Assembly: GCF_002335805.1 (NCBI RefSeq)
Contig: NZ_NISU01000001.1
Coordinates: 1,310,079-1,374,078, forward strand
Source: Bacillus sp. FJAT-45350
GTDB taxonomy: Bacteria > Bacillota > Bacilli > Bacillales > NISU01
Direction: 5' to 3'
Length of the DNA stretch: 64,000 bases
Part shown: piece after piece, positions 3,986-49,001 of the stretch
Position numbering within the stretch: position 1 is the stretch's first letter
Layout: the number at the start of each line of letters is the position of its first letter
Made by a program: the position numbers and the translations under genes
Notes under the pieces: generated by a model
Seen by the model: the letters and a program-made list of their open reading frames with translations, nothing else
What the model was told of the DNA's origin: nothing
Databases searched by the model: none

Positions 3986-4800
3986 GTAAACCTCTAATTT
4001 TCATTCAAGATTTGTGTATTGAGCAAGGAAAAGAGAATAATTTTCTAGTAAAAAAGAGTAATATAAAGATAGAAAAAGGGGAGATTGTCGGTCTAATTGG
4101 AGAGAGTGGTAGTGGGAAGAGCTTAACTGCAAGAGCAATAATGGGACTTCTTCCTTCAGAAATGAATGTATCTGGTCATATTTTTTATCAAGGGACAGAT
4201 TTGTTATCAATTTCTCAAAAAGAACATCGAAAACTTCTTGGTCGTGAAATAGGGATGATTTTTCAAGATTACCGTGGTAGTTTTACTCCTTATATAAAAG
4301 TAGGAAAACAAATGATAGAAACGATTTGTACTCATCAGAAAGTACAGAAGAAAGAAGCAATAACTATAGCTTATTCAGTTCTTGAAGAAATGGGGTTAGA
4401 TTCAGAGCGGGTTTATCGAAGTTATCCTTTTCAATTAAGTGGTGGGGAAGTTCAACGAGCTACGATAGCCATGACTCTAGCATTAAGGCCTGCCTTACTT
4501 ATATGTGATGAAATTACTACAGCCTTGGATGTGATGAATGGCGAAAAGGTACTAGATTATATAGACAAAATTCGTAATAATACAGGATGCGCGGTGTTAA
4601 TGATTACTCATGATTTAGCTCAAGCATATAAGCGAACTGACCGTATGTATGTGATGAATCAAGGTGAAATCGTTGAAGAAGGGCTACCAGAACAAATTCG
4701 TTGCCATCATAAACATCCATATACAAAAAAATTATGTTCTTGTTTACTTTCTCTCCCAGAAGAGAAGCCATTACAAAATGTAAGAGTGAGTGCGTTATGA
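3982..4800 (+). CDS. ABC transporter ATP-binding protein 1 (NikD/OppD family)
   Basis: Cytoplasmic ATPase of the importer. Walker A GESGSGKS lies at about residues 40-47, the Q-loop in MIFQDY, the ABC signature LSGGEVQRA near residue 152, Walker B as LLICDE near 172, and the switch histidine in ITHD. The C-terminal part has the short OppD/F extension with a HKHPYTK motif. The start is GTG with AGGGA upstream, overlapping nikC by 4 nt. It would form a heterodimer with the next ATPase. At 272 aa it is of normal length for NikD and shorter than typical OppD. Confidence 0.85.
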   Translation: MSKPLIFIQDLCIEQGKENNFLVKKSNIKIEKGEIVGLIGESGSGKSLTARAIMGLLPSEMNVSGHIFYQGTDLLSISQKEHRKLLGREIGMIFQDYRGSFTPYIKVGKQMIETICTHQKVQKKEAITIAYSVLEEMGLDSERVYRSYPFQLSGGEVQRATIAMTLALRPALLICDEITTALDVMNGEKVLDYIDKIRNNTGCAVLMITHDLAQAYKRTDRMYVMNQGEIVEEGLPEQIRCHHKHPYTKKLCSCLLSLPEEKPLQNVRVSAL

Positions 4801-5567
4801 GTTTAATAGTAGATGGATTATCAAAACATTATTCAAAGAGCATACAAGCCTTACAAAATATTTCTTTTCGTGTTGCGGAAGGGGAATGCATAGGAATTGT
4901 AGGAGAAAGTGGTAGTGGTAAGAGTACTCTCGCAAGGATACTTATAGGGTTAGAACCTTATAAAGAAGGCTGTATCAAGATAAATGGTCAATCAATAGCA
5001 CCGAAAAAACGAGCCCTTTTACGTGAGTTCAGAAAGAATGTTCAAATGATATTTCAAGATTCTACAGGTGCTCTTAATCCCAAGTTACCGATATGGAAAA
5101 GTATAGTAGAGCCTTTAGATAATTATAAGGAATTTACGCCCTCCTTTATATCTGTAGAAGGACTTTCAAGAAGAGAAATTGCAGAAGCCCTTTTAGAGTT
5201 AGTAGGATTGGACAGGAAAATGGTTGATCGTTATCCAGGAGAATTAAGTGGGGGTCAAAAGCAGCGCGTATGTATTGCTAGAGCAATAAGCATTGAACCG
5301 GCTTTTCTCATTTGTGATGAACCTACAGCAAGCTTAGATGTTACGGTTCAAGTTCAAATATTGGAGTTACTGAAGGACCTCCAAAAGAAAACGAATATGA
5401 CGATTCTTTTTATTTCTCATGATATAAGGGCAGTTTCCTTTCTATGTGAAAAAATGATCGTACTTCATAATGGCATCATCGTTGATCAGTTTAGGTTGGA
5501 AGAGCTTTATCATAAGGAGCGTCACTCATATACCAAGGCCTTAATTGAAGCAGCGAAAATCGACTAA
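4797..5567 (+). CDS. ABC transporter ATP-binding protein 2 (NikE/OppF family)
   Basis: Second ATPase (256 aa), with Walker A GESGSGKST, Q-loop MIFQDSTGALNP, signature LSGGQKQRV, Walker B FLICDEPTASLDV and switch histidine FISHD. A HSYTKALIEAA motif closes the protein, as in NikE/OppF. I start it at ATG 4797, where ATGA overlaps the nikD stop by 4 nt. The longer reading frame from 4734 would overlap nikD deeply and has no ribosome-binding site. It is the last gene of the coupled nikBCDE unit; a 60-nt gap follows before the MATE gene. Confidence 0.85.
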   Translation: MSLIVDGLSKHYSKSIQALQNISFRVAEGECIGIVGESGSGKSTLARILIGLEPYKEGCIKINGQSIAPKKRALLREFRKNVQMIFQDSTGALNPKLPIWKSIVEPLDNYKEFTPSFISVEGLSRREIAEALLELVGLDRKMVDRYPGELSGGQKQRVCIARAISIEPAFLICDEPTASLDVTVQVQILELLKDLQKKTNMTILFISHDIRAVSFLCEKMIVLHNGIIVDQFRLEELYHKERHSYTKALIEAAKID

Positions 5568-5627: not shown

Positions 5628-6974
5628 ATGAAACTAGAGACAGCGCCTACAGAGTTAAAGAATACGATTCCCTTTAGCCAAAAAGAGTATTTAATATTAG
5701 CAGTTCCACTAATCATTTCAGGTATCTCTACCCCAATATTAGGTGCAGTCGATACAGCAGTGGTTGGTAGGATTCCGGACCCAGCTGTTATTGGTGGAGT
5801 AGCGATTGGTGCCGTTATTTTTAATACAATGTATTGGTTATTAGGGTTTCTTCGAGTTAGTACAAGTGGATTTACGGCTCAGGCTGAAGGAGCAAATAAC
5901 CAAAGTGAAATACTTTTATCTTTATTCCGCCCGATGATCATTGCAATGATATTTGGTATGTTCTTCGTCATTTTTCAACAACCTATTTTACAAATTGCTT
6001 TAGCTGTTATCGGAGGTAGTGAAGCAGTATCATCCTTTGCAGCAACCTACTTTTCTATTCGAATATGGGGTGCACCATTTATTTTGCTCAGCTATGTCAT
6101 TATTGGTTGGTTAATTGGGATGGGGAAGGTACGCCTAGCTTTAGCAACTCAAATACTAATGAATGTATTAAATATTGTATTAGATTTTATTTTTGTTTTA
6201 GGTTTTGGAATGGGAGTTAGCGGAGTTGCGTATGCGACATTGATTTCTGAAGTTACATCTGTATTATTTGGTTTATGGCTTATTATACGTTTAAATAATC
6301 TGACATTAGCTGACTTTAACCTTAATAAGCTATTAGATTCTGAACCATTACTTAAAATGATGAAAGTTAATCGTGACTTATTCTTACGTACTGTATGCCT
6401 CCTTATAATGACAGGAATATTTACTGCAAAGGGTGCAAGTATGGGAGAAATTACGTTAGCGGCGAATGCCATTTTACTACAAATTCATTATATTATGGCA
6501 TATATGCTAAGCGGTTTTGCTAATGCCTCAAGTATTATTGTTGGTAGATCTATTGGAGCTAAGAATCAATCGCTTTATAAACGTGCCTATAAGCTCTCTG
6601 CTCAATGGGGCTTTATTTCGGCCATTTTCTTATCATTCATTATGATAGGTTTTGGAGAAAGTATCGTTGGGTTATTTACAACAATTATAGAAGTACGAGT
6701 AGTAACGGTTGAAGCATTATTCTGGATGCTTGTTTATCCTATTGTTGGCTTTTGGGGCTTGCAATTAGAAGGGATATTCTCAGGAGCTACAGAGGCTGGT
6801 CCTGTGAGAGATTCGATTGTCTTAGCATTAATTATGTTTCTATTTGCCCTATGGTTCTTTGTACCTCTGTATCAAAACCATGGAGTATGGATTGCATTTG
6901 TATTATTTACTTTTTTCCGTTCTTTCTTTTTATCATTATATATTCCGAAATTAACGCGTTTAAAGTTTACTTGA
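5628..6974 (+). CDS. MATE-family efflux transporter, DinF-like subgroup
   Basis: Multidrug and toxic compound extrusion antiporter with about 12 hydrophobic helices in two similar halves. The first helix region AVDTAVVGRIPDP followed by IGGVAIGA is typical of the DinF/NorM subgroup. Such proteins exchange Na+ or H+ for organic compounds. ATG 5628 has GAGGAAG just upstream; ATG 5616 is possible but lacks a ribosome-binding site. It follows the importer genes on the same strand by only about 60 nt with no terminator seen, so it may be co-transcribed and could export a chelator that the importer recovers. That link is speculative. Confidence 0.85.
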   Translation: MKLETAPTELKNTIPFSQKEYLILAVPLIISGISTPILGAVDTAVVGRIPDPAVIGGVAIGAVIFNTMYWLLGFLRVSTSGFTAQAEGANNQSEILLSLFRPMIIAMIFGMFFVIFQQPILQIALAVIGGSEAVSSFAATYFSIRIWGAPFILLSYVIIGWLIGMGKVRLALATQILMNVLNIVLDFIFVLGFGMGVSGVAYATLISEVTSVLFGLWLIIRLNNLTLADFNLNKLLDSEPLLKMMKVNRDLFLRTVCLLIMTGIFTAKGASMGEITLAANAILLQIHYIMAYMLSGFANASSIIVGRSIGAKNQSLYKRAYKLSAQWGFISAIFLSFIMIGFGESIVGLFTTIIEVRVVTVEALFWMLVYPIVGFWGLQLEGIFSGATEAGPVRDSIVLALIMFLFALWFFVPLYQNHGVWIAFVLFTFFRSFFLSLYIPKLTRLKFT

Positions 6975-48180: not shown

Positions 48181-48438
48181 CAAATAACCTCCAAAATGTC
48201 TTTTACATGTAGATTATACATTACGAATAGTTTGTACTAAGAGGGTAGGATGGTCAAGCTAGAATAACATCTCAACTTCTAATTGCATATTAATTTCAAA
48301 ACTAATTTTACTACCTATCTATTATCCTATTAGGGTAAACTTAAATTACCAGTGTGAATTCTAGTGTTTTCAGTTAAAATTAAGTAGAATGAATATATGA
48401 TAATCTGTAGTTCAAATAGACAGAGGGGTGAATACAAA

Positions 48439-48951
48439 GTGAAAAGTACAATCTTTACTCTTGTTGCACTCATTTCCATATTGTTATTGACAGCTTGTGG
48501 AGGAAACGAAGATAGTGCAAAAGATATTAAGGAATTGGTGAATGATTATAGTGTCACTAATATGGAAGGACAAATTGCTTCAATCACTTCCCATGAACTT
48601 ATTGTCACTAATAGTGATGAAAGTCAGTTAACTTATGACCTTCCTGAAGATGAGTTTTTTGTTTCTATCGCGCCGTACCTGAACAATACCCATCCTTGAC
48701 TTATCCATAACTTGACAGGTTGTCAAGGCGAATTAACAAATGAAGAGTTTGCTTTATACATTGAAGACAAGGAAGGCAACGCAATACTAGATGAAACCGT
48801 AACTTCATTAGCGAACGGTTTTATTGATTTATGGCTACCAAGAGACAATAATTATACTGTTAGAATTGAATATGACGAAAAAACAGTGGAGTCAGAGATT
48901 TCTACATTTGAAGGAGACGCCACTTGTATTACAACGATGCAGTTGATGTAG
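48439..48951 (+). CDS. cueP: CueP-family copper-binding lipoprotein, probable selenoprotein (UGA at conserved Cys)
   Basis: CueP holds copper outside the membrane and in Salmonella supplies it to superoxide dismutase. GTG 48439 follows GAGGGGTG. The lipobox LLLTAC lipidates the protein. The frame holds 170 residues with one TGA at 48697-48699 (codon 87). Around it, APYLNNTHP-TGA-LIHNLTGCQGEL matches the CueP motif H-P-C-x7-C. The next Cys are residues 95 and 163, with spacings of 8 and 68. As I recall, the Salmonella CueP copper cysteines are 96, 104 and 172, which gives the same spacing. Before and after the TGA the protein is intact (ESQLTYDLPEDEFFVSIAP and ANGFIDLWLPRDNNY). A SECIS-like hairpin follows. 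If it is a stop, the gene is dead. Confidence 0.78.
48711..48727 (+). promoter_or_regulatory. Candidate bacterial SECIS hairpin in cueP
   Basis: CTTGACA (48711-48717) pairs perfectly with TGTCAAG (48721-48727) around the loop GGT (48718-48720). The loop begins 18 nt after the TGA, the distance found in E. coli fdhF, whose loop is also GGU-centred. The stem codes for the conserved LTGCQ stretch, so coding constraint may explain part of it. Confidence 0.7.
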
Positions 48952-48972: not shown

Positions 48973-49001
48973 AAGCGTTTCTGGAAAAAACAGGAGCGCT
49001 T
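48973..49001 (+). terminator. Terminator after cueP
   Basis: AAGCG and CTG pair with CAG and CGCTT in a bulged hairpin, followed by TTTT. Confidence 0.55.

Follow-up and report, generated by a model that had tools for sequence, protein, structure and literature searches.

The closest described relative of the protein studied here is CueP of Salmonella (PDB 4gqz; models NF038094/NF038095 and PF21172), which is exported, binds copper, is supplied with Cu(I) by two thiol proteins, ScsB and ScsC, and serves SodC (PMC13201067; PMC7558416). Its conserved cysteine and histidine residues gather on one face of the protein (PMC7558416), and Cys104 forms a metal-thiolate, the C104S variant having lost resistance (PMC13201067). 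Selenocysteine (Sec) at metal-linked cysteine positions, encoded by UGA with a bacterial SECIS element as proposed here for a CueP, has been described in the CopZ-family 2Fe-2S protein, the SO_0444 Cu/Zn efflux transporter, the mercuric transport protein, SaoB/SaoC and MbdU, but all of these families are unrelated to CueP (PMC13188914, Table 1). CueP is not among the 119 prokaryotic selenoprotein families in the May 2026 catalogue (PMC13188914), in agreement with the original prediction that its Sec form had not been described, and it is not mentioned in the 2022 review or in the 2025 deep-Sep paper. Our literature search retrieved no relevant paper joining CueP with selenocysteine or selenoproteins; RefSeq annotations and subscription papers were outside its scope, and a database-only or unpublished annotation is possible. 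The UGA-containing cueP genes with a common hairpin that we found in dozens of Bacillus relatives apparently constitute an undescribed selenoprotein family.

A CueP lipoprotein gene interrupted by UGA

The window, i.e. the whole stretch of 64,000 nucleotides of Bacillus sp. FJAT-45350 that was analysed, contains a cueP-like gene with the following features, all on the forward (+) strand:

48422..48430, +, Shine-Dalgarno-like AGAGGGGTG, 8 nt 5' of the GTG (sequence reading)
48439..48951, +, cueP-like gene, GTG start, UGA at codon 87 as predicted Sec, 170 amino acids, TAG stop (ORF reading and profile match)
48439..48498, +, lipoprotein signal peptide with lipobox LLTAC, codon of the lipid-bearing Cys20 at 48496-48498 (sequence reading)
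48697..48699, +, TGA codon 87, predicted Sec, equivalent to Salmonella CueP Cys96 (alignment)
48711..48727, +, predicted bacterial SECIS hairpin, 7 bp stem 48711-48717/48721-48727 and GGU loop 48718-48720 (folding and comparison)
48721..48723, +, Cys95 codon, equivalent to Salmonella Cys104, within the 3' arm of the SECIS (alignment)
48925..48927, +, Cys163 codon, equivalent to Salmonella Cys172 (alignment)
48973..49001, +, terminator-like hairpin 3' of cueP, 11 pairs and a T tail (one found against 0.2 expected)

ORF reading bore out the original description of a GTG-started lipoprotein frame of 170 codons in which the TGA at 48697-48699, located between THP and LIHNLTGCQGEL, is the sole internal stop, the TAG end codon beginning at 48949. 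The translated protein scored 193 bits against the CueP_fam profile NF038094 (cut-off 60) and 146.6 bits against the Pfam CueP profile PF21172 (cut-off 27), but did not reach the cut-off of NF038095, the Salmonella-type model (131.9 bits against 195). When aligned to 4gqz, residues U87, C95 and C163 fall on the three cysteines of the Salmonella protein with the same spacings (8 and 68) and THPC of Salmonella stands over THPU, so that the UGA indeed occupies the first of the three CueP cysteines. An AlphaFold2 model in which Sec was entered as Cys had a mean pLDDT of 82 and retrieved 4gqz as the sole strong match in a structure search (E 8.6e-15, TM 0.78), suggesting that the window protein folds like Salmonella CueP. 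It differs from the latter by the predicted Sec in place of Cys96 and by being a Gram-positive lipoprotein; the lipobox Cys20 is almost invariant across its CueP relatives. The window cueP is solitary, with a terminator-like hairpin of its own and no recognised copper genes adjoining. In Bacillaceae and Paenibacillaceae there are Cys-form CueP lipoproteins that are ca. 55-70% identical to the window protein and share its signal and motif; their Sec site reads TGT or TGC, and of the copies sampled two thirds belong to genomes without SelA.

Conservation of the UGA codon and of the hairpin downstream

CueP was present in 73 of the 328 genomes sampled from the order, about half of them having a copy with exactly one internal TGA. 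In a comparison set of 149 distinct CueP genes, including those from 80 loci of named genomes, the codon 87 site was TGA in 61, TGT or TGC in 87 and belonged to a decayed copy in the remaining one, while TAA, TAG and TGG were found at this codon in none of the 149. Cys/UGA pairs, for which an alignment had been proposed, were thus abundant, and a read error in our strain fails as an explanation given the 60 other genes with UGA at the same codon. Named hosts of UGA copies belong to Cytobacillus, Neobacillus, Mesobacillus, Halalkalibacter, Salipaludibacillus, Niallia and Robertmurraya and include Sporosarcina globispora. Among 299 genomes sampled across the phylum, CueP genes from outside the order were few, and all of them were Cys forms. 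The UGA-bearing relatives are in general free of the other lesions that would be expected from decay. Median pairwise dN/dS was 0.23 downstream of the UGA (SECIS codons omitted), matching the 0.21 found upstream and indicating that the sequence past the UGA is translated and under the same purifying selection as the part before it. Two loci had peculiar arrangements: in one (L082 of genome G131, ~4800-5340) the UGA-cueP is spread over two frames, either by a frameshift of the gene or by an assembly error, and another genome (G028, locus L103) contains two UGA-cueP copies 13.5 kb apart.

The hairpin of seven perfect base pairs around a GGT loop was confirmed by base pairing, starting 12 nt after the UGA with its loop at 18 nt as had been noticed originally. 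Published bSECIS criteria are a loop of 3-9 nt, a stem of 4-16 bp, a G in the first two loop bases, 16-37 nt from the UGA and an MFE of -7.5 or lower (PMC13188914). The fold examined here lies within these limits, although its MFE of -7.5 kcal/mol over 40 nt is exactly at the last one. Comparable hairpins were found at 16 of the 2470 TGAs of the window (0.65%; both strands, all frames), and Rfam scans of the region and of the loci gave no match to a SECIS family. Since the encoded peptide LTGCQ is inherently palindromic when suitable codons are used, the hairpin by itself would be a weak argument.

The perfect 7-bp stem with GGT loop was present in 61 of 61 UGA genes and in 4 of 87 Cys genes (Fisher 2.8e-37, a value that ignores kinship and overstates certainty), and its position relative to the UGA was identical in all 61. 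Actually, LTGCQ is encoded in both groups alike; the Cys genes write it freely with synonymous codons, scrambling the SECIS codons in 83 of 87, while the UGA genes use only YTG ACA GGT TGT CAR with the exception of a single compensated variant. This is TTG GCA GGT TGC CAA, in which a Thr-to-Ala change (ACA to GCA) is matched by TGT to TGC on the opposite arm. Such a choice of codons does not reflect the usage in the rest of the same UGA genes, where GGA is commoner than GGT for Gly, TGC is commoner than TGT for Cys and Thr codons vary freely outside the hairpin. Furthermore, the hairpin pair 13-27 was TA in 52 UGA genes and CG in nine, with no mixed states, which are common in Cys genes, and TTG/CAA and CTG/CAG have replaced each other only jointly, in about five changes on the tree. 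Codons frozen apart from compensatory changes indicate that this hairpin is a SECIS.

Probable selenocysteine decoding and switching between Sec and Cys

The search for selA, selB, selC and selD in the genome of strain FJAT-45350 was successful for all four genes, which are clustered at one locus:

L088 (G000:C1:800000-818000), tRNA-Sec, SelB, SelD, SelA and a SelW-like gene, within 12 kb

The tRNA-Sec (selC) has the anticodon UCA (TCA in the DNA), SelB scored 353 bits and SelA was matched with an E value of 1.5e-145, and the catalytic site of SelD is itself encoded by UGA. Between SelD and SelA (L088, 12540-12779) there is an Rdx/SelW-like gene (PF10262) with an in-frame UGA (CMMU), probably another selenoprotein of this genome besides SelD. 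Like the window cueP, both are UGA-Sec genes that would be served by the same SelB, but they sit in the sel locus and are not metallochaperone-like. Formate dehydrogenases were discarded as the reason for the sel genes because those of this genome lack UGA; the sel genes would be explained by SelD and SelW. The sel locus also contains, between selB and selD (L088, 7849-10375), a set of ABC transporter genes (substrate-binding lipoprotein, permease and ATPase) that looks PhnDEC-like by eye and may serve in selenium uptake.

Across the order sample, with SelA presence classed by strong matches (E < 1e-100), SelA was found in the host genomes of 38 of 38 classified UGA copies against 12 of 38 Cys copies (p 3.5e-11, again ignoring kinship and overstating certainty). 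It was also found in 21 of 22 further named UGA genomes. The one UGA genome devoid of both SelA and SelB is that of Metabacillus malikii (L173). A stretch of 7.8 kb that includes its UGA-cueP shares 96.5% identity with DNA of Robertmurraya massiliosenegalensis (L175). Because of this similarity the gene looks like a recent transfer that would be unreadable in its new host. In one UGA genome (G032) no tRNA-Sec was detected above the gathering score, despite the presence of SelA, SelB, a UGA-SelD and a UGA-FDH.

Although kinship weakens both p values, the freezing of the codons, the compensatory changes and the link to SelA agree in direction, and they extend the original proposal of a Sec-containing CueP beyond what a single sequence could provide. 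We consider it very probable that the UGA at codon 87 is read as Sec. The ribosome would arrive at this codon, SelB carrying Sec-tRNA-Sec would bind the hairpin 18 nt downstream, Sec would be inserted and translation would run on to the TAG at 48949; this SelB- and hairpin-driven insertion with continuation is strongly supported by the comparative data. UGA is the leakiest stop codon in bacilli, and a truncated product is to be expected whenever Sec is scarce, so the codon might instead be suppressed by near-cognate Trp or Cys read-through, or act as a programmed partial stop with the short lipoprotein as the real product. However, only SelB-dependent decoding explains the SelA association together with the compensatory SECIS changes, and the half past the UGA shows conservation at the protein level and contains two of the three conserved cysteines; unspecific read-through was rejected on these grounds as very improbable. 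That the UGA is a chance Cys-to-stop mutation (TGC or TGT to TGA) in a dying copy, or a sequencing error, is hardly credible for a family with 61 such genes with intact flanks, a downstream dN/dS of 0.23, frozen SECIS codons and UGA copies that follow SelA. True decay does exist in a second copy of genome G161 (L092, ~5000-5400), where the second Cys codon is TGA, the Sec site reads TAC and a TAG is also present; this genome lacks SelA and has an undamaged Cys copy at a distance of 17 kb.

Sec and Cys forms are intermixed on the CueP tree, with 16 changes between them in the best tree, a rough count from a short alignment in which most forks are unresolved; at least three are forced by the starred branches, on which independent-pair tests had three pairs only, not enough for significance. 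Within the comparison set, the sequence closest to the window gene, from Evansella tamaricis (L144, ~5809-6249), combines TGC at the Sec site with an unaltered hairpin, and its genome encodes SelA and SelB. This is likely a recent switch if, as we infer, the direction was from Sec to Cys. Genome G032 has both forms, a Cys copy (L003) and a UGA copy (L027).

A possible redox role at a copper site

A copper role in the Bacillus lineage is suggested by homology. Sec87 would lie within the copper site because the cluster of conserved Cys and His of the Salmonella protein includes its position. The genes near cueP were surveyed at ~98 loci of bacilli with mechanically called ORFs, and they included a DsbD_2-type membrane protein (17), a TlpA-like redoxin (10), pieces of P-type ATPases (12) and DUF326 genes (10). 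The last is a Cys-rich family that we take to include copper-storage proteins; all ten were beside Cys copies, and together with the P-type ATPase pieces they were mostly near Cys copies. These neighbourhoods point towards a copper-linked thiol/selenol redox cycle. Sec-CueP would be exported through its lipoprotein signal and then fold like Salmonella CueP, with Sec87, Cys95, Cys163 and nearby His forming a copper-handling cluster on the outer face of the membrane. Here Sec would be the redox-active or attacking residue, speeding the thiol/selenenylsulfide reactions by which copper is bound or reduced, and a reductant of the DsbD/CcdA or TlpA type may reset the site. We lean slightly towards this redox function over that of a pure ligand.

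The original prediction had proposed a selenolate copper ligand; in this version a real Sec would act as a pure selenolate ligand of Cu(I), or a copper buffer, without redox turnover. A selenolate copper ligand is plausible, given the copper binding of Salmonella CueP, the metal-thiolate at Cys104 and the loss of resistance in C104S (PMC13201067), and a metal-ligand role is proposed for Sec in several predicted selenoproteins (PMC13188914). A redox role is at least equally compatible: most characterised Sec residues are in redox sites (PMC13188914), genes resembling DsbD and TlpA are repeatedly found around CueP in other species and in Salmonella two thiol proteins, ScsB and ScsC, pass Cu(I) to CueP (PMC13201067), so that ligation alone is a possible but somewhat less probable function. 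It is unlikely that the decoded protein handles another soft metal or oxidant (e.g. Hg, Ag or hypochlorous species) and not copper. Many metal-linked selenoproteins do concern Hg and As (PMC13188914), Salmonella cueP responds also to N-chlorotaurine (PMC13201067) and the window copy has no recognised copper genes beside it, but homology and fold are those of CueP and the P-type ATPase pieces and DUF326 genes are found near copies of this family, if mostly Cys ones.

Taken as a whole, the picture of a widespread new family of exported lipoproteins, in which Sec would be a direct redox-active copper ligand on the Gram-positive outer surface and would have switched repeatedly with Cys, has in our opinion an even chance of being correct. 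The family brings selenium into the extracytoplasmic copper handling of bacilli that are common in soils and in the sea. It also accounts for genes that the standard code would cut at residue 86 or label as pseudogenes. The paired Sec and Cys orthologues, both forms within genome G032 and the Cys form with hairpin of Evansella tamaricis, allow a direct test of what a copper site gains from Sec in place of Cys.
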